Positions 5,056-20,339 of a stretch of DNA of 43,829 bases are shown here, one piece after another. The notes below the pieces were generated by a model. That model made no database searches. It worked only from the letters and a program-made list of their open reading frames with translations, and had not been told where the DNA came from. The position numbers and the translations under genes are program-made. Source of the DNA: a virus; the IMG/VR virus record IMGVR_UViG_3300024346_000138, positions 1 to 43,829 of that record; one strand, written 5' to 3'. Numbering within the stretch: position 1 is the stretch's first letter; every line of letters starts with the position of its first letter.

Positions 5056-5402
5056 TGAGTATGCGTCCATTATGTAAAAAATGTAAGAAAAAACCTTCTG
5101 CGATCAACTATCACAAAGATAATAGAACATTCTACCGAAGTATGTGCGAAAGTTGTTGCCGTACAGGCGGAGGAGCCAAAGGTATTCCTCGATGGCAAGA
5201 GAATGGTTATATTAAAAAGTCTAAATGTGAGAAATGCGGATTCAGTAGTAGAAACGAAAAACAGTTTGATGTTTATCACATAGACGGCAGATTAGATAAT
5301 TGTCGTCCTAGTAATTTAAAAACTATTTGTGCTAACTGTCAAAGAGTCCTACAGGATGAGGAAGTCCGTTGGCGTCAAGGTGACCTAATCCCCGATCTTT
5401 AA
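5055..5402 (+). CDS. Small zinc-binding HNH-type protein
   Basis: This 115-residue basic protein has four Cys-x2-Cys pairs: C7/C10, C31/C34, C58/C61 and C92/C95. The C-terminal half reads F-D-V-Y-H75-x-D77, then N82, N87-L and C92-x2-C95. This is the layout of a zinc-stabilised HNH endonuclease (treble clef with a catalytic His). The N-terminal CxxC pairs probably bind a second zinc. It could be a free-standing HNH nuclease or a DNA-binding remnant; activity is not shown. It is the only plus-strand gene between gp18 and gp14. Its 3' end overlaps the converging kinase gene by 71 bases. The start is ambiguous: ATG at 5055 has AAGGG upstream, while ATG at 5061 fits the late box spacing. Confidence 0.75.
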   Translation: MSMRPLCKKCKKKPSAINYHKDNRTFYRSMCESCCRTGGGAKGIPRWQENGYIKKSKCEKCGFSSRNEKQFDVYHIDGRLDNCRPSNLKTICANCQRVLQDEEVRWRQGDLIPDL

Positions 5403-5898
5403 ATTCTATATGATCTATTAGGCTACACACATTAAATTCTAATTCATCAATATCGCCATTGTTGTCAATAGTATAGTCCGACATCCATTGTTCTAAACTC
5501 ATACTATCTTTTGATTCAGGAGGTAGATGATCTGATCTGTCAACCCAAATACAGTAGTCAAACACACCTGTGTTTTGCATTGCAAAGAATTCACGCTTAT
5601 TACGTAGTCCACAATATATGTCAAACTCGTTAAACATTGCTCGTCCTAACCGAGCAGCATCGCCCTTATTATAATCACAAATAGCATTATACCACTCTGC
5701 TCGGTGATTATGCCTATCTGCATAGCATTCTTCTTCGGTAGTATAATTGTACTTGTCTTTTAAATCATTATAGATAAAAAGTTTAGAGCAGAATTGACTG
5801 CTTGATTCAAATGTGTATCCAAATTTATCACGTAAAATTTCGCATACAGTATCTTTGCCGTGGCGGCCGTGTCCAATAACTAATAGTTTAGGTAACAT
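5332..5898 (-). CDS. P-loop deoxynucleoside monophosphate kinase-like protein (T4 gp1 type)
   Basis: This 188-residue protein starts with a strand and P-loop, 'LLVIGHGRHGKDT' (G9-x4-G14-K15-D16-T17). The GKD[T/S] form is typical of phage dNMP kinases such as T4 gp1 and of dephospho-CoA-kinase-like enzymes. These transfer phosphate from ATP to a deoxynucleotide to feed phage DNA synthesis. Further on are 'AARLGRAMFNEFD' and an Asp-containing strand 'YCIWVDRSDHLPP', consistent with the kinase core. It ends 'LPHPVGLFDS'. It has its own sigma70 promoter rather than a late box, as expected for a nucleotide-metabolism gene. Substrate specificity cannot be read from sequence. Confidence 0.75.
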   Translation of the reverse strand: MLPKLLVIGHGRHGKDTVCEILRDKFGYTFESSSQFCSKLFIYNDLKDKYNYTTEEECYADRHNHRAEWYNAICDYNKGDAARLGRAMFNEFDIYCGLRNKREFFAMQNTGVFDYCIWVDRSDHLPPESKDSMSLEQWMSDYTIDNNGDIDELEFNVCSLIDHIEFKDRGLGHLDANGLPHPVGLFDS

Positions 5899-9514: not shown

Positions 9515-9958
9515 ATGAAGGACATTATTTGTAGTGGTGCATTACTATATGCACTTAACACTAAACGATTTTTATTTTTGCATCGTGCTAAAGGCAAGCA
9601 CAAAGATCTTTGGGGATTAGTAGGTGGTACTAGTGAGCTCGGAGAGACTCCTTGGTCTGCATTACAACGTGAAATACAAGAAGAAATTGGCAACGTTGAT
9701 GTTGTTAAAACAATACCGTTAGAAAGTTTTGTCAGTAATGATAACGCCTTCCATTTTCATACATATCTCGGAATAGTCGAACAAGAATTTTTACCTAATC
9801 TAAATGACGAACACACTGGTTATGCGTGGGTTGAATTAGGAAAGTGGCCTAAGAGCTTACACCACGGGCTACGTAATACTTTACAAAACAAAACAATACA
9901 ATCTAAACTTAAAACTGTTATAGATGTAATAAACTTATTAGAGAAAAATAATGGATAA
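9515..9958 (+). CDS. Nudix hydrolase
   Basis: This 147-residue Nudix protein hydrolyses a nucleoside diphosphate linked to another group. The box G38-x5-E44-x7-R52-E53-I-x-E56-E57-x-G59 is intact except that the final hydrophobic position is Asn60. The upstream 'RFLFLHRAKGKHKDLWGLVGG' is the usual strand before the box, as in MutT/ADP-sugar types. It sits 27 bases after gp15 with no visible ribosome site, and overlaps the cupin gene by 8 bases. The cupin next door resembles sugar-phosphate cupins, so a GDP-mannose-type substrate is possible, but this is a guess. Damaged-nucleotide sanitation is the alternative. Confidence 0.85.
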   Translation: MKDIICSGALLYALNTKRFLFLHRAKGKHKDLWGLVGGTSELGETPWSALQREIQEEIGNVDVVKTIPLESFVSNDNAFHFHTYLGIVEQEFLPNLNDEHTGYAWVELGKWPKSLHHGLRNTLQNKTIQSKLKTVIDVINLLEKNNG

Positions 9959-10308: not shown

Positions 10309-10566
10309 ATGTTTCCAAAGTTACAAGAAAACAACAAAGTCCAAAAAGAGTTAAAAAAGTTTGATGCAGCTATTAAACAAATAAAAAATATTCACGTTAA
10401 AAACTCGGCAGCAAACTTGTTACAAGAATTAAAAAACGAATATGAAATTATTGACGGATCTTTTTTAGGAACAAACGGTCCGGTAACTCCTGGCGTAGCA
10501 AGAGAATCTGCAATGAAAACAATGGATTTGCGTAGTAAACTTAATAGTCTGTTAAAGCGACGATAG
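10309..10566 (+). CDS. Small helical protein, unknown function
   Basis: The ATG at 10309 is chosen because TTGGAGAT lies just upstream and the previous stop ends at 10307. A longer reading frame from 10264 would overlap the cupin gene. The 85-residue product (MFPKLQENNKVQKELKKFDA...) is Lys-rich and largely alpha-helical, with a coiled-coil-like stretch over the first 50 residues. It then has 'DGSFLGTNGPVTPG' and a basic C-terminal helix ending LLKRR. I do not recognise it. Its place at the end of the gp14-gp15 operon suggests a virion-assembly or small accessory role. It overlaps the converging fibre gene by 15 bases. Confidence 0.6.
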   Translation: MFPKLQENNKVQKELKKFDAAIKQIKNIHVKNSAANLLQELKNEYEIIDGSFLGTNGPVTPGVARESAMKTMDLRSKLNSLLKRR

Positions 10567-12195
10567 TCTTTTTACAGTAATAGATCCAACCATTGCCGGA
10601 TGTAGTGTACATTGATATGCAAATGTACCACTAGTACTTTCCGGTATACTCCATATTAATGTTCCGCCATCTTGTGCTTGTGCGCTTGTATCTGCACTAG
10701 GAGTACCATCTTCTGCAATGTGTAATAAATTAGTAGTAATCGGAGTCAAAGTGCCGTCTAGGATTTCAAACGGATGTCCGCCTACATTAAGTTTAAAACT
10801 GATTTGCATTCCGCTGATAACAAAAATTGATGGATTGCTTCCAGTGTATAAAGGATTAAATGTATAAGCAGTTGCACCAATATTATCTACTTCAAAATGC
10901 ATTCCGCTTCGTACAACAAATTCGTCAATAGTTGCTAAGTTGGCAGTTTGTGCATCTCCTAACTGATCAAAATCAGTTACACCAGATGCTCCATTGTAAC
11001 TTACAGTAATCGTATCACCAGATACTGCTGTTGTAATACCAGCACCGCCAGCAACTGTTAATGTATCAGTTGCTGAATTTGCAGTTGTTGACCCAGTGTC
11101 ACCGGATACTGTTTCAAATAAATTTTGTGTTGCTCCGCCAGCAGACACAGTCCTAAAAGTAAAGTTTCCAAACCCATCTGTGCCAAGTACTTGATTGTTT
11201 GATCCATCAGCAATACCTAAGTCAGTTAAGTCAGCAGGTATAATACTGCCTGTATCTGTAAGATCTCCTAGGTCAGTAGGTATAGTAGGCGTACTAGATA
11301 AATCAGTATAAAGCCCGCTTGTTGCTACTGTTGCAAATCCTGCTTCTACTGGTGTTTGGTTTATCCATGAACTAGATGCGTTATCATATGCTAGGAGATC
11401 ATTGTCTCCTACTGATGTAATTGCTATATCAGTAATATTATCTATTGCTACACTTACCAAAGCACCAATTCCTGCTGCTGTAGGCGGAGTGTATCTAAAA
11501 ACACCTGTTGTGTTGTCGTATCCAATAGCGCCGTTACCACTAGCTGTAAGTTCATTGCCTACACTAAAGTCCGTTAATGTAGCAATGGCTGGAGTGTTAC
11601 TAAAGTTATTGTAATCTAAAAAGTATGTACTATCAAAGCCGTCAAGTGTATCAGCGTCAGTACCGCCGCCTCCAGATGTAGCGTCTGCTCCAGGTGCCCA
11701 ATTAGTTCCGTTCCATTTTAGCACCTGTCCACTTGTTGGAACACTGCTAGAAGTATCAACATCACTTAAAAAGTCAATTCCAAATGCATCCATATTTACA
11801 GTAAGATTAGAAGTGTCTGTTGATATCTCTGTAGAGATATTAGTACCGCCTAAAATATTTAAAGTATCGTCCTCACCGCTTGCTACTGCTGTACCGTCAT
11901 CTGATACTATATTCTTAAATACATCGCCTGCGCCGCCGCCTGCTTCGCCTGTAAAATTAAATGTAACAATATCGTCAACAACACTAGTTGCAATATTTGT
12001 GCCGCCTGCTAATGTTAATGTGTCAGCAACTCCGTCTGCGGTTGTTTGACCTGTGTCACCTTGGATTGTTGCAAAGATATTTGCGCCGGCTGCTGAAGAC
12101 GTTACATTCCAAGCAGTTCCGTCCCATTGCCACGTTGTATTACCGACAGTAAATACCTCGTTTAACCCGGGTGATGCTGGATAATTAATTGCCAT
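10552..12195 (-). CDS. Fibre-like virion protein with C-terminal amicyanin-like copper domain
   Basis: This 547-residue protein starts 'MAINYPASPGLNEVFTVGNTTWQWDGTAWNVT', a common phage fibre opening. It then has three copies of a roughly 45-residue repeat, 'F-x-T/N-I/V-x-GDTG-x-TTA...DTLT-V/L-AGG-x-I', near residues 38, 88 and 355. Between them is 'SGQVLKWNGTNWAPG', another fibre module. The last 110 residues form a cupredoxin-like domain: 'FVISGMQISFKLNVGGHPFEI' with His474, and 'TFAYQCTLHPAMVGSITV' with Cys529, His532 and Met535. Those four residues match the type 1 copper ligands and C-x2-H-x2-M spacing of amicyanin. It is probably a tail fibre or collar protein displaying a copper domain at its tip. 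AAAGGT precedes the start, 17 bases after the upstream gene. Confidence 0.8.
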   Translation of the reverse strand: MAINYPASPGLNEVFTVGNTTWQWDGTAWNVTSSAAGANIFATIQGDTGQTTADGVADTLTLAGGTNIATSVVDDIVTFNFTGEAGGGAGDVFKNIVSDDGTAVASGEDDTLNILGGTNISTEISTDTSNLTVNMDAFGIDFLSDVDTSSSVPTSGQVLKWNGTNWAPGADATSGGGGTDADTLDGFDSTYFLDYNNFSNTPAIATLTDFSVGNELTASGNGAIGYDNTTGVFRYTPPTAAGIGALVSVAIDNITDIAITSVGDNDLLAYDNASSSWINQTPVEAGFATVATSGLYTDLSSTPTIPTDLGDLTDTGSIIPADLTDLGIADGSNNQVLGTDGFGNFTFRTVSAGGATQNLFETVSGDTGSTTANSATDTLTVAGGAGITTAVSGDTITVSYNGASGVTDFDQLGDAQTANLATIDEFVVRSGMHFEVDNIGATAYTFNPLYTGSNPSIFVISGMQISFKLNVGGHPFEILDGTLTPITTNLLHIAEDGTPSADTSAQAQDGGTLIWSIPESTSGTFAYQCTLHPAMVGSITVKRLSSL

Positions 12196-12212
12196 ATTGT
12201 GTACCTTTTAAA

Positions 12213-13391
12213 TTATGCATAAGTGTTTAAACTTCCGTAGACAATCCAACTGCTCGATAATCGTAGTAAAGTAAATCCTACTATATCAGTTTGACTTGCA
12301 GTTCCGCTAGGCGCTGATCCGCCTTGCCATAATATTGTTTGCGCTACGCCGTCCACTTGAAGTGCTGTAGGCAAATACGGAGTTGATCCTTGCGTAATTA
12401 CTACAGCAATACTTATTGATTTATTATCGTCTGTTGGAACATTAGTGATATCCGCTGTAAAATTAGCAGCAGATGATGTATGTTGCCATAGCGATGATAT
12501 ACTAAAGTCGTGTGTTACAACTCCAGTTGCTCCTACTATTAATTGCACATTTTCTCTTGTGCCTGCAAGATCAGCTATTCCTGTAATACTAATGTCACCT
12601 GCAACACTTATATCGTTGCTTACATTTACTGCATCTGGTGCAGTTAAATTTATACTACTTGCACTTGTTATACCAGGAGTTCCTACTCCTGTTGATGTAA
12701 TGCTATCTGCAGAAATTGTTGTTGCTGTTATTTCGTCAAATGCTACATCGTCAGTTGTATTAAGAGATTGGTTATAAGAGGTGCCACCGCCGCCACCTCC
12801 GCCACCAGTTACAGTTGTAAATGAAAACGCTCCTGAACCGTTGGTTGTTAAAACTTGTCCTGAGCTGCCATCTGAAATTCCTAAGTCTAGTAAACTTATT
12901 GGTATAGTAGGTTTATTTTGTACGTTTGCCCAATCTAATATTGGAAGGGGATAACTTGGTTGTATCCATTGACTAGAATCAGTGTCAGTTACATATACAT
13001 AAATTTGGCCGTTAGTGCTGTTGAACCAAATATTTCCTTGTTCTGGTGATGTAGGTACTGTATCACCTACATCTACACTTGCTCCGCCGCCGCCTTCAAA
13101 CCCGCTTGCTGTAATTTTATTAGCAAATACAGTGTTATCGATGTTTGTAAGATCTGCAAGAGCTATTCCTGCTTCAGACGAAGCAGATTGAAATTGTGCT
13201 GTAGTTACATTAGTTAGATCGCTTCGAGCAATTTCAAAACCGCCAGTATCTTTACCGCTATACACTCTAAGTGTATTTGATGATTTACTAAAGAAAATCT
13301 CGCCGCTTGATCCTACATTCCGATCTAAAAAGTCAGTCGGACGTGGGATAATTCTAATTCTGTCTACTACAGGTGCTTGTGATGATGACAT
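12213..13391 (-). CDS. Fibre-like virion protein with a polyglycine hinge
   Basis: This 392-residue protein has an N-terminal 'IIPRPTDFLDRNVGSSGEIFFSKSSNTLRVYSG', then 'GDTVPTSPEQGNIWFNSTNGQIYVYV...SQWIQP', the Trp-module common in marine phage fibres. Next come 'LDWANVQNKPTIP', 'SSGQVLTTNGSGAFSFTTV' and a run of eight glycines near residue 200 that should act as a hinge. A Ser/Thr-rich shaft ('ITATTISADSITSTG', 'VNVSNDISVAGDISITG') and a beta-rich C-terminus ('LLRLSSSWIVYGSL') follow. It is first in a two-gene late operon with the cupredoxin-bearing fibre. AAGGAG precedes the start. Its ligand is unknown. Confidence 0.75.
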   Translation of the reverse strand: MSSSQAPVVDRIRIIPRPTDFLDRNVGSSGEIFFSKSSNTLRVYSGKDTGGFEIARSDLTNVTTAQFQSASSEAGIALADLTNIDNTVFANKITASGFEGGGGASVDVGDTVPTSPEQGNIWFNSTNGQIYVYVTDTDSSQWIQPSYPLPILDWANVQNKPTIPISLLDLGISDGSSGQVLTTNGSGAFSFTTVTGGGGGGGGTSYNQSLNTTDDVAFDEITATTISADSITSTGVGTPGITSASSINLTAPDAVNVSNDISVAGDISITGIADLAGTRENVQLIVGATGVVTHDFSISSLWQHTSSAANFTADITNVPTDDNKSISIAVVITQGSTPYLPTALQVDGVAQTILWQGGSAPSGTASQTDIVGFTLLRLSSSWIVYGSLNTYA

Positions 13392-13409: not shown

Positions 13410-13417
13410 TATTTATT
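13410..13417 (-). promoter_or_regulatory. Late promoter box for the two-gene fibre operon
   Basis: The minus strand reads AATAAATA, then CTATACAAGGAG before the ATG at 13391. It overlaps the stop codon of the upstream unknown gene, so the fibre pair can be transcribed late, independently of the halogenase operon. Confidence 0.6.
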
Positions 13418-13832
13418 AATATTTGGTATAGTACAATCGATTAGCAATGTCTTGTACGTTATCATTTTTTAGGATAAACTTGCGTACATTGTCTATATGA
13501 ATAAGTTTCCTTTGTTTTCCAGGAAAACTTACTACTGGAAGATGATTCATTCTTAACAATTCGTCGCCTCTGTAAGATTCAATTTCGATAGGAACTTCAT
13601 CTATTGGTAACATTCCATAGTGTTTAAACTTCATTGTACACACTGACGTTACTAATTTGTCGTCTTCGATATATTCCATAATTAATTCATTTTCTTTTAA
13701 TAATTCTATTACCCATTCATACAACTTTTTTCGATCTTTTTGTATCTTACGTTTACTGTACTCGTCACCTTTATCTTTCCGCGGAGTAACTGTGTATATT
13801 ACTAGTTCGTCTGTATAAAATTCTTCCATCAT
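13416..13832 (-). CDS. Unknown protein, last gene of the modification operon
   Basis: This 138-residue protein is highly charged ('TPRKDKGDEYSKRKIQKDRKKLYEWVIELLKENELIMEYIEDD') with a long basic-acidic helical N-half. The C-half is 'MLPIDEVPIEIESYRGDEL', 'HLPVVSFPGKQRKLIHIDNVRKFILKND'. No signal peptide or membrane segment is visible. I do not recognise a family. Its start overlaps the stop of the preceding gene by 4 bases (ATGA), so it is coupled to the DUF6065-like gene. A late box for the next operon is embedded in its end. Confidence 0.65.
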   Translation of the reverse strand: MMEEFYTDELVIYTVTPRKDKGDEYSKRKIQKDRKKLYEWVIELLKENELIMEYIEDDKLVTSVCTMKFKHYGMLPIDEVPIEIESYRGDELLRMNHLPVVSFPGKQRKLIHIDNVRKFILKNDNVQDIANRLYYTKY

Positions 13833-14563
13833 GATTTGCTTCCAAAATACTTATAGTATATATCTTTAATTAATGTTCGTTTTTGTTTAAACGTATGATT
13901 CATTAAAAATTTAGATTTAGTAACCCAATTTAAATCTTTTTCTGTTGCATTACGCACTTCCAAGTCAAAGATTTTTTCTGACAATGGTATTATCTGTGCT
14001 AATGGTTGTCCTGCTTTAATCATAAATTTACCTTTAGGTACATTACAGTATGCTTGTATGTTTATTTCAGAACTTATGCCTGGGTCTAATATACCCGAAC
14101 TACTTTCAAGTTCAAAATTATCAGGATAAGGTATTGGAATCATTAGAAACTTTACACCTTTAGGAGCAATAATGTGCCACGGCATATTAATCTTTAATAA
14201 CGGTCCAACAGTCCAAGGTTTTACAGGCATTAATGTTTCGACGCCAGTCTGTTGTCTTGAAATAATGTCTTTACCACTTGCTAGATCAACTATATCTGAT
14301 GTAGGGATAGTCCATTTATAATTTCCTGTGCCATCTGTTTCTATTAAAACATCGTGCCACATTGGAATAATGTATCCAGTTTTTGCTAAATCAAAAATAC
14401 CCGGGCATTGGTATATGTGATCCATTCTGCCGTCGGCTGCATCTAATTTTCTTTTAAAATCGTTTCTGGCTCTATTCATCCAGTCTGGTTTATATTGCTT
14501 TGCTGGTATGATCGGAACTGCTTCAGCTAAGCCGTCAATAGTACTAAAAAATTCAATTTTCAT
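13829..14563 (-). CDS. DUF6065-like beta-barrel protein of the modification operon
   Basis: This 244-residue protein carries 'GYIIPMWHDVLIETDGTGNYKWTI', 'KINMPWHIIAPKGVKFLMIPIPYPDN', 'SSGILDPGISSEINIQAYCNVPKGKFMIKAGQPLAQIIPL' and a helical C-terminus. The pattern P-x-G-Y-x-x-x-x-x-P...G-I-x-D...P-x-G-x-x-I-x-x-G-x-P-x-A-Q-x-I-P resembles, from memory, the DUF6065 family, which keeps company with oxygenases and halogenases. The closing 'AGQPLAQIIP' also recalls dUTPase/dCTP-deaminase barrels, but the catalytic motifs of those enzymes are not evident. It overlaps the preceding gene by 11 bases and the next by 4. Its role is unknown; it may bind the operon's product or substrate. Confidence 0.6.
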   Translation of the reverse strand: MKIEFFSTIDGLAEAVPIIPAKQYKPDWMNRARNDFKRKLDAADGRMDHIYQCPGIFDLAKTGYIIPMWHDVLIETDGTGNYKWTIPTSDIVDLASGKDIISRQQTGVETLMPVKPWTVGPLLKINMPWHIIAPKGVKFLMIPIPYPDNFELESSSGILDPGISSEINIQAYCNVPKGKFMIKAGQPLAQIIPLSEKIFDLEVRNATEKDLNWVTKSKFLMNHTFKQKRTLIKDIYYKYFGSKS

Positions 14564-15131
14564 TTTTAAACCTTATGTCAAATGCAATATTAATTCTAGA
14601 TTTATTAGATAAATTCGGTTCAACTTCGTGCGGTAACCAACTAGGCCACATAATTAAATCTTTGTCCTTAGGTGAAAAGAAAAAGTCTCTAGTAAATGGA
14701 CTTTTTGTATTACACTCACCTAATGTATTTGCAGGATTCATAATACGGAGATCACCTGTACCTGATCCTTGTATATAATACACTCCGGATAATATTCCAG
14801 GCTTGTGTGCATGCATAACATTTCTCGAACCGATATTATTTACGTTTGCCCAGTAATGAATGTCAAACTGTTGATTAGAATACATTGCAAAAGTATTATC
14901 AATATCTGAATAATATTTAAATTGTTCTTTTACTGATGTTTCTATTGCCTCTAATAAAAATTTAATATTATGTAATTGTTGAGTACCTCGCCAGCAACCG
15001 TCGTTACTAAACGAACTATTAGGAAACTTTGTACTGTTTTCTAATATTTCTTGTTTTAATAAATCTAAATTACTATCTGAACCAACTTCATTATAATTAA
15101 AAAGTCCAGCATGTAGGATTGTTGGGATCAT
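14553..15131 (-). CDS. 2OG-Fe(II) oxygenase-like protein (second in operon)
   Basis: This 192-residue protein looks like the TIGR02466-type putative 2-oxoglutarate/Fe(II) oxygenases that hydroxylate or desaturate small substrates. Key residues are H107-x-H109 in 'RNVMHAHKPGILSGVYYIQG', His168 in 'DLIMWPSWLPHEVEPN', and Arg179 in 'SRINIAFDIRF', the position expected to hold 2-oxoglutarate. The classic HxD is read here as HxH, as also in the sister gene at 16643. It overlaps the halogenase stop by 4 bases and the next gene by 11. It shares the family layout with the 199-residue protein upstream, but overall identity looks low. Confidence 0.8.
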   Translation of the reverse strand: MIPTILHAGLFNYNEVGSDSNLDLLKQEILENSTKFPNSSFSNDGCWRGTQQLHNIKFLLEAIETSVKEQFKYYSDIDNTFAMYSNQQFDIHYWANVNNIGSRNVMHAHKPGILSGVYYIQGSGTGDLRIMNPANTLGECNTKSPFTRDFFFSPKDKDLIMWPSWLPHEVEPNLSNKSRINIAFDIRFKNEN

Positions 15132-16639
15132 CTATCATACCAATCAGTTAAGTACTCGTATTGATTTTTAAACATGTTTTCAACTAAATCTAATCTTGCA
15201 TTAGTGCAATCAATAAAATACTTTCCGTATCGTTCTTGAGATTCTGTTAAGTACGGCTCTACGTCTTTATATGCGCCGCCTGCGTGTAATACACTAAACC
15301 ATTGAGTAATATTAAACATACTACTTGGTGTTAAATTCATAAAGCGTTGAGGATAAGGCAAAAATGCTGATAATATATCTTTAATAAACTTTGGCATTTC
15401 TTCTAATTTTTGCTCACGTATTTCTTTCCAGTACGGTGTATCATTACGTGAACTAAAGTAATAGTGCGCCCAAACAAATGCTAGAATTTCTTCTGACATT
15501 TCACTAAAGCCTCTATTAATAAATCCTTTTGTTTCAGTATTCCAAATATTTCCAGTATTATTCAATAAATCAACAATGCTCATAACTGCACCTGTTGTAA
15601 ACGTAATGCCTGTTGCTTCTAACGGTTCAACAAATCCTGCACTTAGTCCAACTGCAATTACATTTTTTACTGCAATTTCTTTGTGATACCCGCATTTCAT
15701 TTTTAAATGATTTGCAGGAGCTACGTATTCTCCAATTGACTCACGCAACTCTGCTTCAGCGTCTTCTTTAGATATATGCTTACTAGAATATACATACCCA
15801 TTTCCTACTCTTGTAAAAATAGGAATAGTAAAGCGCCAACCTGCTTTCATTGTAGTTGCTTTTGTATACGGAAAACATTCTTCTTCTGGATTTTTATATT
15901 GTTTAGGTATAACTACTGCACTATCATTTAGCAGTATGTCGTTATAACTATGGAAGGGAATATTAAGTTCTTTTTCAAGTAATCTACTTTGAAATCCTGT
16001 ACAATCAATATATAAGTCTGCAGAATACTTATTTCCATTAGAGTCTATTAATGCTGTTATACCGTTTTGATCTTTTTGTATATTGTCTATTTTAGCATCA
16101 ATATGTTGTATTGTGTCGCCTAATATTTCTTTAAGAGTTTTAATTATATTATGAGCATTAAAATGTACTGCACCAAAGTGTAATGGCCCCATACGATGAT
16201 TTACATCTAAGTAGTCATCAAATTTTTGACATATGTTTTGTTTTGCAAGACGGTATGCAGGATGATAGTCTTTAAATTCTTTATTTGTTTTACCTATAAA
16301 GTAATCAGAGATATAATAATCTTCTGCAATTAATGTATTATCAGGAGAGTCGTTATCTACAAAGTACGGCTCATCATTCCATCCCTCAAGCTCAACACCA
16401 TACTTAAAACTAGCATCACTTGTATTCATCCATTGCTTTGGTGGTATACCGCATTTACCTAAAAAGTGTGCGGTGGCAGGTTGTGTTCCTTCACCAACTC
16501 CGATTGGCCCTGCACTGACATCTTCTATTAATGTTATTTTAGTGGGACGTTGTAAATTTCTAGACATATATGCAGCAGTTAGCCAGCCGCTTGTTCCGCC
16601 GCCAAAGATTATTATGTGTTGTACTTTATTTAAAAACAT
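15128..16639 (-). CDS. Flavin-dependent (tryptophan-type) halogenase
   Basis: This 503-residue protein has the full tryptophan-halogenase plan. 'HIIIFGGGTSGW' (GGGTSG at 13-18) binds FAD. 'GVGEGTQPATAHFLGKCGIPPKQWM' follows, then 'SFKYGVELEGW' with Lys79, the position of the catalytic lysine that carries or guides HOX in PrnA. 'AGWRFTIPIF' is the W-x-W-x-I-P signature with its second Trp replaced by Phe270. 'VGLSAGFVEPLEATGI' carries Glu341, the partner of the lysine. 'YIDCTGFQSRLL' is also typical. The enzyme would oxidise chloride or bromide with FADH2 and O2. A flavin reductase partner is not in the window. It overlaps the following oxygenase by 4 bases and follows the other oxygenase after 3 bases. 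The substrate is unknown and need not be free tryptophan. Confidence 0.92.
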   Translation of the reverse strand: MFLNKVQHIIIFGGGTSGWLTAAYMSRNLQRPTKITLIEDVSAGPIGVGEGTQPATAHFLGKCGIPPKQWMNTSDASFKYGVELEGWNDEPYFVDNDSPDNTLIAEDYYISDYFIGKTNKEFKDYHPAYRLAKQNICQKFDDYLDVNHRMGPLHFGAVHFNAHNIIKTLKEILGDTIQHIDAKIDNIQKDQNGITALIDSNGNKYSADLYIDCTGFQSRLLEKELNIPFHSYNDILLNDSAVVIPKQYKNPEEECFPYTKATTMKAGWRFTIPIFTRVGNGYVYSSKHISKEDAEAELRESIGEYVAPANHLKMKCGYHKEIAVKNVIAVGLSAGFVEPLEATGITFTTGAVMSIVDLLNNTGNIWNTETKGFINRGFSEMSEEILAFVWAHYYFSSRNDTPYWKEIREQKLEEMPKFIKDILSAFLPYPQRFMNLTPSSMFNITQWFSVLHAGGAYKDVEPYLTESQERYGKYFIDCTNARLDLVENMFKNQYEYLTDWYDR

Positions 16640-16642
16640 TTT

Positions 16643-17242
16643 TTATTCCTGATATGTGTATCTAAAATCAGCATTAAATGCCAATGATATTCTAGTATTA
16701 GTTGTCCGGTTGGGCATAACTTTATGTAATAGCCAATTTGGAAATAATAAAAGCATGCTTTGCTCTACTGCTATATTTACAATATTTGTATAAGTTGGTG
16801 TCTGATGTGGGAACGATACTACAAACGGATTTGGGCTTTTGAATTGTATATCGCCACTGCCTGGAGTAAATTTATGATAATATACTCCGCTTACTACATT
16901 TGGTTGATACCCGTGTTCGTGAAATCCAATTAACTGTTCAGTAGAAAATTTATTAAGCCACGAACTGTTTACATTAATACTATCAGTTTGATAACGTTGC
17001 CCAGTTTGTTCTAAGTAGTTTTTAACATGTTGTTTTATAACATCATTAGTAACTTTCATATCAAAAGTTGGTATGATATTCATCATATCATTACTAAAGG
17101 TTGTTTCAGCTGTATCGTTATCAGGTTGCCAATCATTTTTAAATATAGCACTAGACACTACATTATCTATTTCAATATCTAATAAGTCAGTATCTTCAAC
17201 AGTATGAATATAGATTGGGGTAGAGAAAAAGTTTTCAATCAT
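16643..17242 (-). CDS. 2OG-Fe(II) oxygenase-like protein (first in operon)
   Basis: This 199-residue protein is similar in plan to TIGR02466-type oxygenases: 'MIENFFSTPIYIHTVED' at the start, 'SSWLNKFSTEQLIGFHEHGYQPNVVSGVYYHK' with H108-x-H110, 'MLLLFPNWLLHKVMPNRTTNTRISLAFN' with His173 and Arg184. It would use O2, Fe(II) and 2-oxoglutarate to hydroxylate an unknown substrate. It sits between the methyltransferase fusion (4-base ATGA overlap) and the halogenase (3-base gap), so the three are made together. The HxH in place of HxD may still bind iron or indicate a halide-accepting site. Confidence 0.82.
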   Translation of the reverse strand: MIENFFSTPIYIHTVEDTDLLDIEIDNVVSSAIFKNDWQPDNDTAETTFSNDMMNIIPTFDMKVTNDVIKQHVKNYLEQTGQRYQTDSINVNSSWLNKFSTEQLIGFHEHGYQPNVVSGVYYHKFTPGSGDIQFKSPNPFVVSFPHQTPTYTNIVNIAVEQSMLLLFPNWLLHKVMPNRTTNTRISLAFNADFRYTYQE

Positions 17243-18906
17243 TTAGCTACAACAAGTATATATAACCCGTTCCACCATTGACTAATATCTTCAACATCAT
17301 TTAGCATTAGTTTTTCGTATGTAACATAACCTCCGCACTCATTAATGCCTTCTCTAGCACCATTAACTACTCCGTCCCAATTTGCATCATCAAATATTAA
17401 AACAGTTTCGTTTTTAAAAGTATTCCAATAATGTTTAACTACATTCTTTGTAGATTCTTGATCATGAGGACCATCGTAGAAAAACATGCTAAATGCATTT
17501 GACATATTTGTAGTATCAATTGCAAACATATCATTATTAATTACTTCAATTCTATTATTGCCTTTATACGGTTCAACATTTTTAATAAACTCATCTAAAG
17601 AGTTAGGAGGAGTAGTACTTCCATTAGCTGGCTGTATTTGCTCTTCCCACTTATCGATAGCAACAGCAAGAAGCATATTGTCTTTTAATACCGAACTTAG
17701 AGTTGCTCCTAAATACGATCCAATTTCTAAATAAGAGTCGACACCTTTTGCAATAGAGTTAAGAAGAGTTTGTACTCTAGGTGAAGTTAGCCCAGGTATG
17801 TCAACTTTTGTTGTAGGAATACCGCTTGACTCAACACAAGTAACTACATGCTTAACTAAATCGCTGTGATCAATTTCTGTTTTTGCTTTGTAAATTTTAT
17901 CGCAAAATTGACATTCCCAACAGTCAAATTTACAGTTCTTAATAAGTTTGCGCCATGCGTCAATAGGACGTTCTTTTAAATTTGTATCTTCTAAATATTG
18001 GTTAAATGTTTCTATTAATATTTCTTCGTTATCGTCCCATTTTTTAATTATAGTCATGGTTTCGAAAAGTCTACTTACTGCTTCTCTACCATGCATTTTA
18101 AATACGTCAATACCGCAATCATTAATCAATTCTTCCCAATCTTCTTTCCATGGCGGCAGATCAGAAGTTTTTAAATGTACTGCTGGATCTATAAAGTCCC
18201 ATTTAGGACAACTTACTCGACTTATAGGATCATTAAAGTATTGCGGATCGTTACCTTGTCTAGTATTATTATATTCAAAATGTTCTACCATCATAGGGCA
18301 GTTACCTAAACACCCTTCATTTGCTAATAAACTAATTTTAATTTCTTTTCCTAAATTATCCTTAATCCATTCTTTAGCGGCTTTAATGCGTAATAGCGTA
18401 TCTCTGTCACGCATTAAGTCTCTATCTAAATTGATATAATCAAACCCAACTTTAGCAAGATTTACTATTTCAGTTGCAGTTCTTACATCACGTAAAATAG
18501 TATTCTTAACCATTAACTCAGGAAATGCACGTTTTATTTGACCAGTTGCCATCCAGTGTGTATGTGGTATAGTAGCTATACGTACACCTGCATCATATAT
18601 AGGTTTGAAATTCTTTATAAAGAGATCTAAATTCTTTTGTGTCGGGGGAACTTGTATATTATTAAATGTTGCACTGATCGGAATATCTAAACTTTTTTGT
18701 ATATAGATAGCCATGTCAATAGCATGAGAATAGTCTTCGTTATGTATAAAGATATCTCCCATTGCATCTTGTGCAAAGGGGGAAATCCTCGAAGTAAAAT
18801 ATACATCGTAAATTAAATGTTTATATGTTTTTAGAAAAGAAATAAACTCGTCGAATTCTTCTTTACTTAATTTAGGATTTAAAGGTACACTGAATATCTT
18901 TTGCAT
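17239..18906 (-). CDS. Fusion: U32-like Cys-rich domain plus class I SAM methyltransferase
   Basis: This 555-residue protein has two parts. Residues 1-345 look like a TIM-barrel of the U32-peptidase/UbiU-V kind: 'YDVYFTS...', 'IPISATFNN', 'ANEGCLGNCPMMVEH' (Cys199, Cys203), 'VSCPKWDF' (Cys233) and 'NCKFDCWECQFCDK' (Cys325, 329, 332, 335). The cysteines could ligate an iron-sulfur cluster or zinc. Residues about 370-555 are a Rossmann methyltransferase of the Methyltransf_24 type: 'SYLEIGSYLGATLSSVL' is the SAM loop and 'FFYDGPHDQEST' the acidic motif. The methyltransferase call is firm; the U32-like call is tentative. It is the first gene of the modification operon, with a consensus sigma70 promoter. 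The ribosome site (GAGTGAG) is weak and lies within the operator arm. Confidence 0.75.
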   Translation of the reverse strand: MQKIFSVPLNPKLSKEEFDEFISFLKTYKHLIYDVYFTSRISPFAQDAMGDIFIHNEDYSHAIDMAIYIQKSLDIPISATFNNIQVPPTQKNLDLFIKNFKPIYDAGVRIATIPHTHWMATGQIKRAFPELMVKNTILRDVRTATEIVNLAKVGFDYINLDRDLMRDRDTLLRIKAAKEWIKDNLGKEIKISLLANEGCLGNCPMMVEHFEYNNTRQGNDPQYFNDPISRVSCPKWDFIDPAVHLKTSDLPPWKEDWEELINDCGIDVFKMHGREAVSRLFETMTIIKKWDDNEEILIETFNQYLEDTNLKERPIDAWRKLIKNCKFDCWECQFCDKIYKAKTEIDHSDLVKHVVTCVESSGIPTTKVDIPGLTSPRVQTLLNSIAKGVDSYLEIGSYLGATLSSVLKDNMLLAVAIDKWEEQIQPANGSTTPPNSLDEFIKNVEPYKGNNRIEVINNDMFAIDTTNMSNAFSMFFYDGPHDQESTKNVVKHYWNTFKNETVLIFDDANWDGVVNGAREGINECGGYVTYEKLMLNDVEDISQWWNGLYILVVAK

Positions 18907-18913
18907 TAATTAT

Positions 18914-18951
18914 CTCACTCTCTATTAGTAGTTATTATAACAGAGAGTGAG
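18914..18951. promoter_or_regulatory. Perfect 10-bp dyad flanking the -10 box (candidate operator)
   Basis: CTCACTCTCT (18914-18923) and AGAGAGTGAG (18942-18951) are exact inverse complements 18 bases apart. On the minus strand one arm lies between -35 and -10 and the other in the early leader. Because only one arm is transcribed, it is not an RNA hairpin. A dimeric repressor site covering -10 and +1 fits best. Confidence 0.65.
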
Positions 18952-18962
18952 CTAGTTGTCAA
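18934..18962 (-). promoter_or_regulatory. Perfect-consensus sigma70 promoter of the modification operon
   Basis: The minus strand has TTGACA (18957-18962), 17 bases, TATAAT (18934-18939): every position is consensus. It sits in the 52-base gap between the unknown gene (whose stop it overlaps) and the U32-like/methyltransferase gene. No late box is present, so the operon should be read by host-type RNA polymerase. Confidence 0.9.
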
Positions 18963-19507
18963 GTTGGTTCTAGCCAATGTATCTTAAATTTTGGAGCTCT
19001 CTTCCTGCGCATATTAATCGGAAACCCTACATCAAAGTAGTCATACATTAATTCTTGGGTTGCATTTATAGTAGTTAATTGATTAATTGCTGCATTTAAA
19101 CCAGCAACTGATTTACTGTTTGGCTCAGTATGATTTTTTAAGTGTATTCGCATTATAGTTTTATAAAATTCTACACAGTTAAGGGTATCTGTTTGTGTAA
19201 GTCTGTAGTAAACTTTAGTTTCATCCAGTTCTTCAGTATCTCCGCTTCCGTCAAATATTTCAGCATAAACGTTTGTCGACTTTCTTACAGAAATTTCACC
19301 TTCGTGGGCACTAGTAAATTTATAAGCTTTAGCTACATTCTCTGATACTTTCTGACCATGTAACCAAGAGTACACAATGTCATCGTTATTGCTAGGAAAT
19401 TTAATGACGCTATAGCACCAAAACTCTCCCATTCTTTCCATTAGAGGATGCAATCGAGGATCGTCACCTGCAACAGTTTCATGTATTATATAAGTCGTAT
19501 CCGTCAT
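18959..19507 (-). CDS. Unknown phage protein
   Basis: This 182-residue mixed alpha/beta protein begins 'MTDTTYIIHETVAGDDPRLHPLMERMGEFWCYSVIKFP' and ends in a basic 'NMRRKRAPKFKIHWLEPT'. No known motif, signal or membrane segment is visible. It starts 29 bases inside the preceding gene, so it is co-translated with it. The pair follows the fibre cassette and has a late box, so it probably encodes virion or assembly proteins. Its terminal codons overlap the -35 hexamer of the modification operon. Confidence 0.7.
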   Translation of the reverse strand: MTDTTYIIHETVAGDDPRLHPLMERMGEFWCYSVIKFPSNNDDIVYSWLHGQKVSENVAKAYKFTSAHEGEISVRKSTNVYAEIFDGSGDTEELDETKVYYRLTQTDTLNCVEFYKTIMRIHLKNHTEPNSKSVAGLNAAINQLTTINATQELMYDYFDVGFPINMRRKRAPKFKIHWLEPT

Positions 19508-20339
19508 CTAATGTTGTATCCTGTGTAGTTAGTTGCGGCCCGTCATTTGGTGAATTATCTATACCCAATGACGTTAAGTCTGGTTTAGTAAGCGACAAAT
19601 TACTTCCGTTCTCAAGACCTAAATCTTTCTCAACTTCTAATTGAATAGCAGTTTCGGCTTCTTTCAACTGCGTAGCAAAACTATGAGCTAATGCTAAAGT
19701 GTGCGCTTGTTGTTCTTCGCTCATACTTAATATTGCATCCATATTACCTGTATTAACTCGACCATAGAATAACAAATCTGATGCTGCTTGTTTACCTAAT
19801 CTATGTGTCCAATACTCTTGTTCATACAGATCTTCTTCGTCTGTATTAATAATATCAAAGTAAGTTCTACCGGTACCGTCTGGTAATAGTACTTCGGGTG
19901 ATGCTTTAAATTCATTTATGAGATCGATAAATTGTTGTCTTTCTAAAAACCAATCTTGTAGTCTACGTCTAGTAGCAACTTGTTGTCTGTTTAACTTGTC
20001 TGCTTCTATTGCGTGTAATCTTTTCTCAAATGGGTCAGGATCGTGTTCTGCTAGATAAGTGTGTCTATCTATTTCAACTTGCCATTTTAGAATTTCGTAT
20101 TCTGTATGTTCAATACCTTCTTCACGAGTACGTAACTCTAAAAGCCACTGACGCAATTTTGCAAAAGGTGTTATTTGAGTTTGACCTACAAAGTATCTCA
20201 TTTTGAACTTTGGGTTAGTCCATTCTTTGTTTATAGCAAACAATACAGTTTGCTGATCTTCATCAGATAACGAATCGGTATTAGTTCTTAAATCATTTAT
20301 ATAGTGGGTGTTCGCAAACTGCGCTAATCTATCAACCAT
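19479..20339 (-). CDS. Unknown phage protein, helical
   Basis: This 286-residue protein is predicted mostly alpha-helical and highly charged ('WLLELRTREEGIEHTEYEILKWQVEIDRHTYLAEHDPDPFEKRLHAIEADKLNRQQVATRRRLQDWFLERQQF'), with a Ser/Thr/Asp-rich C-terminal tail. The N-terminus is 'MVDRLAQFANTHYINDLRTNTDS'. I do not recognise it. GGAGAT precedes the ATG, and a late box lies at 20366-20373, so it is expressed late. Position after a fibre cassette suggests a fibre assembly or adaptor protein, which is inference only. Confidence 0.7.
   Translation of the reverse strand: MVDRLAQFANTHYINDLRTNTDSLSDEDQQTVLFAINKEWTNPKFKMRYFVGQTQITPFAKLRQWLLELRTREEGIEHTEYEILKWQVEIDRHTYLAEHDPDPFEKRLHAIEADKLNRQQVATRRRLQDWFLERQQFIDLINEFKASPEVLLPDGTGRTYFDIINTDEEDLYEQEYWTHRLGKQAASDLLFYGRVNTGNMDAILSMSEEQQAHTLALAHSFATQLKEAETAIQLEVEKDLGLENGSNLSLTKPDLTSLGIDNSPNDGPQLTTQDTTLDDGYDLYNT

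Follow-up and report, generated by a model that had tools for sequence, protein, structure and literature searches.

A conserved phage cassette of halogenase, oxygenase, and methyltransferase genes beside tail-fibre genes: a candidate protein-tailoring set

What does a phage modify with a flavin-dependent halogenase that is encoded together with two oxygenases and a methyltransferase in the middle of its virion genes? The question is raised by the IMG/VR virus record IMGVR_UViG_3300024346_000138, a linear record of 43.8 kb (43,829 nucleotides; the whole stretch is hereafter called the window) from an aquatic tailed phage. Six open reading frames (ORFs) occupy positions 13416-18906 of its minus strand and are joined by four overlaps (4, 4, 11, and 4 bases) and one 3-base gap, exactly as the original prediction, made from the sequence alone, had laid them out. 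That prediction also placed them in a virion region, and the flanking genes indeed belong to tail sheath, tube, and fibre families. Our reading, to which we assign a probability of roughly 40%, is that this cassette is a phage-specific tailoring set that would oxidise, O-methylate, and halogenate one target, namely a protein and most likely a phage tail-fibre protein. From its upstream end, the cassette comprises:

17239..18906, minus strand: fusion of a U32-like barrel and a class I O-methyltransferase, 555 amino acids (aa), by Methyltransf_24 and predicted structure
16643..17242, minus strand: 2-oxoglutarate (2OG)-Fe(II) oxygenase 1, by PF13759
15128..16639, minus strand: flavin-dependent halogenase of the tryptophan-halogenase family, by PF04820
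14553..15131, minus strand: 2OG-Fe(II) oxygenase 2, by PF13759
13829..14563, minus strand: DUF6065-like protein with a predicted dUTPase-like fold, by phrog_7084
13416..13832, minus strand: 138-aa protein whose position is conserved among relatives

The cassette is conserved as a unit. The order g286, g182, U32-methyltransferase, (2OG), halogenase, 2OG, DUF6065-like, 138-aa protein, and fibre genes was kept in dozens of viral contigs, down to approximately 56% halogenase identity. When IMG/VR was scanned with the halogenase alone, 18 loci were found, and the U32-methyltransferase gene lay at most 2.5 kb away in 18/18. A scan with the DUF6065-like alignment gave 68 loci, and partners were counted in the 31 that remained after removal of near-copies and had at least 3.5 kb of upstream sequence. 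The U32-methyltransferase was found within 5 kb in 29 of these 31, the halogenase in 26, and a PF13759-type oxygenase within 3 kb likewise in 26. The 138-aa gene, whose product matched only its own relatives and neither a family nor the phage database, held its position in 29 of 35 non-redundant loci. Gene junctions across relatives were mostly overlaps, with the main internal gap located 5' of the U32-methyltransferase. Since order and partners are conserved across loci, a chance grouping of the six genes is ruled out, and the proposal of one enzyme cassette with a co-transcribed appearance, instead of a lone auxiliary gene, is borne out. The gene-order search suggested along with that proposal returned homologues that were co-located rather than scattered and whose catalytic residues were conserved. 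On both sides, the neighbouring genes keep their places as well:

18959..20339, minus strand: upstream neighbours of 182 and 286 aa (phrog_1409), order conserved in relatives
10552..13391, minus strand: downstream fibre-type proteins of 392 and 547 aa, tail fibre families phrog_9729 and phrog_677, same position in relatives

In the cyanophage S-H25, the 286-aa gene also precedes a U32-methyltransferase gene, with no halogenase at that place.

The halogenase matched PF04820 over the full length of the profile (E 5.4e-98; 329 bits, cut-off 21), and its PDB matches include the viral halogenase VirX1 (6qgm, E 1e-55). The GxGxxG motif for binding of flavin adenine dinucleotide is present as GGGTSGW (residues 13-19), and the WxWxIP motif reads WRFTIP (268-273) in the window and WRWTIP in the close relatives L022, L028, and L029. 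Lys79 and Glu341, which had been noted as intact, were invariant in 20 aligned phage sequences (26 to 85% identity) and in every member of a wider set of approximately 50 sequences. By its profile match, flavin-binding motif, and catalytic residues, the protein is a PF04820 flavin-dependent halogenase, for which halogenating activity is predicted. The halogenase tree had an uncertain root and long branches, and no argument for independent origins was drawn from it. As a separate observation, L022 carries a second, short halogenase-family protein (L022:8671-9852; 393 aa; PF04820 E 5.8e-31), followed by two PF13759-type oxygenases; the same place is so occupied in L023, L025, and L026, and these four relatives lack the DUF6065-like gene.

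Both oxygenases were correctly assigned to the 2OG-Fe(II) enzymes at the outset, as they matched PF13759 with E values of 3e-17 (oxygenase 1) and 1.1e-17 (oxygenase 2) and 63-65 bits against a cut-off of 27. They are 31% identical to each other over 85 residues. Oxygenase 1, whose gene is absent from some relatives, has a conserved H-x-H...H...R pattern, and H111, H113, H172, and R183 of oxygenase 2 (numbering of the alignment reference) were invariant in 47 relatives. The two proteins and their relatives carry H-x-H where 2OG enzymes usually carry H-x-D, so that their iron ligands may be unusual.

The C-terminus of the U32-METHYLTRANSFERASE fusion matched Methyltransf_24 (E 3.4e-9; 37.9 bits, cut-off 26.3), and the fusion matched phrog_1458 with an E value of 7e-170. 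Its AlphaFold2 model reached a mean predicted local distance difference test score (pLDDT) of 79, with weak stretches at residues 198-242 and 327-345. In this model, the C-terminal part resembled O-methyltransferases (Z 15-17, maximum 17.0), including TrmR (5zw3, Z 15.4), and by profile and predicted fold it is a class I O-methyltransferase. The N-terminal part resembled the U32 protein Mk0906 (5d88; Z 15.9, root-mean-square deviation (rmsd) 3.4 over 221 residues), but it had no Pfam match, PF01136 included, and its hhalign comparison with TrhP, RlhA, and UbiU was not significant (probability 1.5%). This part also departs from the Glu/Cys spacing that is canonical for RNA-acting U32 proteins, and PDB sequence searches from the U32-like and DUF6065-like alignments gave nothing significant. 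Because of the missing PF01136 match, the hhalign result, and the different cysteine spacing, we label this part U32-like: as modelled, it is a U32-like fold rather than a proven member of the U32 family. The predicted fusion thus stood for its methyltransferase half by profile and for its U32-like half as a modelled fold. All 34 aligned sequences, as well as the wider set, retain Cys199, 203, 233, 325, 329, 332, and 335 without exception. The U32 genes trhP1 and trhP2 of Bacillus subtilis share an operon with trmR, which encodes a methyltransferase of hydroxylated uridine (PMC6599085). There, a U32 hydroxylation protein and a catechol-O-methyltransferase-like enzyme are likewise paired, whereas the phage has them fused, with no detectable PF01136 match and with a different cysteine pattern. 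The analogy of hydroxylation followed by O-methylation is suggestive and does not by itself make tRNA the target.

The name of the DUF6065-like protein was reached indirectly. The window protein matched phrog_7084 (E 2e-39) but not PF19541 (DUF6065), whereas a relative on the metagenomic locus L230 (6396-7334), a tailed phage as judged by its virion genes, matched both phrog_7084 (6.2e-43) and PF19541 (30.5 bits, cut-off 26.6). The assignment by sequence therefore holds through these two intermediates, and a direct match to the DUF6065 profile was not obtained. The structural model (pLDDT 91.7) resembled dUTPases with Z scores of up to 11.0 (rmsd 2.5, 119 residues). By hhalign, GILDPGISSE and IKAGQPLAQII align with dUTPase motifs III and IV (E 2e-4, probability 45%), and the Asp of motif III is kept. 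Motifs I, II, and V (PRSG and the C-terminal P-loop-like motif are among the five dUTPase motifs) were not recognisable in the protein, and PF00692 (dUTPase) had no match. We conclude that a dUTPase-like fold is predicted, while the full motif set and the profile match of the dUTPase family are lacking. A genome scan with the phage alignment yielded no bacterial homologue, and PF19541 found nothing in ten halogenase-carrying bacterial genomes.

The DUF6065-like protein also recurs in a second group of phages, where the order is a collagen-like gene, the DUF6065-like gene, and then a gene for a GT25 + PLOD-GT + 2OG protein. The latter (Pfam E values down to 1e-41) has the architecture of collagen lysine hydroxylase-glycosyltransferases. 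The group comprises the loci L091-L095 and L207-L280 and the isolates Roseobacter phage CRP-6 (L281), Synechococcus phage S-CAM9 (L282), and S-8S55 (L283). Its collagen-like proteins contain tens to more than 100 G-X-Y triplets, often with GQKGQKGE. The collagen-like gene was present in all 39 of 39 GT25/PLOD-GT loci with at least 4.5 kb of upstream sequence, and the DUF6065-like gene stood between it and the GT25/PLOD-GT/2OG genes in 19 of 67. Among the isolates, whose G-X-Y runs count 55-99 triplets, S-CAM9 and S-8S55 have the order fibre, oxygenases, then glycosyltransferase (GT), and CRP-6 carries fibre and GT genes. In the literature searched, no report of such phage loci was found. They share with the window the placement of hydroxylating enzymes directly after a fibre gene; they differ by a collagen substrate and glycosyltransferases, and neither a halogenase nor a U32 domain was found in them.

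Halogenases with similar company are known from cultured phages. Queries against the phage database with the DUF6065-like proteins of the window and of Syn10 matched 14 and 15 records, respectively. In the 14 shared records, which represent six lineages (Syn10/syn9, S-RIM44, S-CREM1, P-TIM40, Sf-FP1/CH3, and Sf-FR1), a halogenase adjoins the DUF6065-like gene, as seen in the region examined for each lineage; the exception is S-RIM4, with a weak match beside ribonucleotide reductase. At least two PF13759-type oxygenase matches occurred in five of the six lineages, most of which have a row of 2OG oxygenases, and in four of the six the genes ahead of the halogenase module are annotated as structural, tail-fibre, or collagen-like. 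The Syn10 protein CPUG_00131, annotated as hypothetical, is VirX1 itself (full-length match to PDB 6qgm, 1271 bits). Its locus resembles the window in that a halogenase of the same family is followed by a DUF6065-like gene and PF13759-type oxygenases. In contrast, the window halogenase is only about 28-30% identical to VirX1 and falls into a separate clade, and the Syn10 locus has two tandem halogenases, more oxygenases, and, within the region examined, no U32-methyltransferase. The active site of VirX1 is large and open, and the enzyme tolerates bulky substrates (PMC8407142).

The grouping was also partly foreseen. Iyer et al. described a 10-gene halogenase/2OG/methylase cluster in cyanophage S-SSM6a in 2021 and predicted a halogenated-metabolite pathway (PMC7824862). 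Like the window, it groups a halogenase, several 2OG oxygenases, and a methylase; unlike the window, it is centred on carbamoyltransferases and HAD phosphatases, both absent from our six genes, and is described without a U32 domain. Given this cluster and the six cyanophage lineages, the idea in the original prediction that marine phages carry lone halogenases must be abandoned. Cyanophage genes listed by Sullivan et al. include prnA and several 2OG genes (PMC3037559), and the authors of the S-CREM1 study, who listed its halogenase apart from its ten 2OG genes, proposed pyrrolnitrin-type antibiotic protection (PMC9964418). No paper describing the whole window arrangement was found in the open-licence literature searched. 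The window cassette is more organised than those in the literature found, yet of a partly foreseen kind; new are the U32-like/methyltransferase fusion with its seven invariant cysteines, the predicted dUTPase-like fold of the DUF6065-like protein, and the tight coupling of the parts. Bacterial tryptophan-halogenase loci from 80 genomes, which share the Pfam family at 30-37% identity, had no relative of the DUF6065-like or U32-methyltransferase genes nearby. Across the 80 loci, oxygenase 1 had a single weak match and oxygenase 2 a single profile match, and these loci were rejected as a functional model.

In the gap 5' of the U32-methyltransferase, the first cassette gene, two overlapping elements were found:

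18934..18962, minus strand: promoter-like element TTGACA-17-TATAAT with extended -10, 12/12 consensus bases
18914..18951, minus strand: 14-bp inverted repeat around the -10 box, RNA fold of -19.6 kcal/mol, z -5.8

The promoter-like element corresponds to a sigma70-type consensus. At the same place in 39 distinct relatives, at least 10 of the 12 promoter bases were present in 15 (approximately 2 expected) and at least 11 in 8 (0.2 expected), and relatives with other arm sequences form hairpins there too. A T run follows the hairpin in many relatives, which gives the impression of a terminator overlapping the next promoter. The T4-type late motif TATAAATA showed no enrichment in the window, with 2 occurrences against 8.1 expected, and no Rfam match to any RNA element was obtained across it. 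By consensus and folding, this is a candidate promoter, and the co-transcribed-looking cassette would form a transcription unit of its own, apart from the fibre genes.

How could these proteins work together? In the pathway that we infer, the U32-like domain would hydroxylate the target and the fused methyltransferase would cap the hydroxyl, a step modelled on the separate U32 protein TrhP and TrmR acting on a tRNA uridine. The two 2OG oxygenases would hydroxylate further side chains, and the VirX1-like halogenase, supplied with reduced flavin by the host, would halogenate an exposed aromatic side chain. The DUF6065-like protein with its dUTPase fold and the 138-aa protein may help to bind or present the target. 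A protein is favoured as this target because family searches found no scaffold-forming enzyme among the six genes, which, as had been noted, also include no precursor peptide, non-ribosomal peptide synthetase (NRPS), or flavin reductase. The open active site of VirX1 and its acceptance of bulky substrates support the protein reading, as does the shared operon of trhP1/P2 and TrmR in Bacillus subtilis. A fibre is favoured because dozens of contigs have the cassette at this same position among fibre genes, and because the DUF6065-like partner recurs with collagen-like fibres and collagen-type hydroxylase-glycosyltransferases.

Several points weigh against this fibre target. We know of no modified phage fibre to date, and the U32 enzymes studied so far act, to our knowledge, on RNA or quinone precursors. 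Phages also deposit unrelated accessory genes in the fibre region. A collagen-like substrate in the window or its clade had to be dismissed, as no real G-X-Y protein was found there. A sigma70-type promoter-like start would equally fit enzymes that act early on the host, and DUF6065-related genes of haloviruses HSTV-2 (L284:5914-6783) and HF1 (L286:5620-6504) and of cyanophage S-RIM4 (L285:5944-6738) have thymidylate synthase, DNA polymerase, or ribonucleotide reductase genes in their vicinity. The wider claim that tailed phages use dedicated enzymes to alter the chemistry of their own tail fibres, including carbon-halogen bonds made by a VirX1-like halogenase, is somewhat doubtful at present.

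That the same enzymes instead make a halogenated, hydroxylated, and methylated small molecule from a host metabolite such as an amino acid, or modify the capsule or lipopolysaccharide of the host, so as to change the host or keep out competitors while infection lasts, appears rather unlikely to us. Such a product is what Iyer et al. predict for the S-SSM6a cluster (PMC7824862), relatives in the same halogenase family chlorinate free tryptophan, and the promoter-like start is separate from the fibre genes. However, the six genes encode no carbamoyltransferase, glycosyltransferase, NRPS, or amino-acid-activating enzyme, and the set stays fixed beside fibre genes even in distant relatives. An action on nucleic acid or nucleotides is unlikely, be it a tRNA wobble modification by the U32 and TrmR-like domains or an action of the dUTPase-fold protein and the halogenase on nucleobases. 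The fusion mirrors trhP and trmR, down to its modelled similarity to TrmR, the motif III Asp is retained in the dUTPase-like fold, and the neighbours of the HSTV-2, HF1, and S-RIM4 genes suggest a nucleotide role for that branch of the family. Yet the unrecognisable dUTPase motifs and the lost Glu/Cys spacing of RNA-acting U32 proteins speak against it, PF13759 is neither an AlkB nor a TET family, and the cassette is located among virion genes. Of the two contexts of the DUF6065-like protein, that of the fibres is nearer to the window cassette, since there the halogenase and both oxygenases remain grouped with the fibre genes.

We consider it improbable that there is no single pathway at all and that independently acquired accessory genes merely share an insertion hot spot and a promoter. 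Some relatives lack oxygenase 1, some oxygenase 2, and some the DUF6065-like gene, and most of the 123 phage records with the U32-methyltransferase have no halogenase match, as would be expected of such genes. Against this, two halogenase clades that lie far apart both have the DUF6065-like gene next to the halogenase, and gene order persists over a wide range of divergence.

With regard to the phage itself, the SAR11 or cyanobacterial host implied originally is unproven. A cyanophage host was rejected, since eight related records lack psbA and the tail sheath has its nearest counterparts in the jumbo phages PA5oct/MIJ3 and Atu_ph07; one related record measures 245 kb. Elsewhere in the window, near the fibre genes and on the strand opposite to the cassette, a small protein matching the cysteine dioxygenase phage family (9951-10307, plus strand) and a Nudix-like protein (9515-9958, plus strand) are encoded. 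A 188-aa protein (5332-5898, minus strand) matches the interior of dNMP-kinase and thymidylate-synthase phage families over one or two stretches, possibly a shared repeat domain.

Viral flavin halogenases were already known, and one of them, VirX1, has been crystallised, while a natural substrate for any of them was not found in the literature searched. The cassette ties the halogenase to fixed partners, namely the DUF6065-like protein, the 2OG oxygenases, and the U32-methyltransferase, and to fibre genes, so that the question of its substrate becomes accessible to experiment in cultured phages. With fibres as the target, phages would be added to the small number of protein-halogenating systems, and host recognition could be chemically controlled. 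Should the remodelling of fibres prove true, VirX1-like viral halogenases would gain their missing natural substrate.

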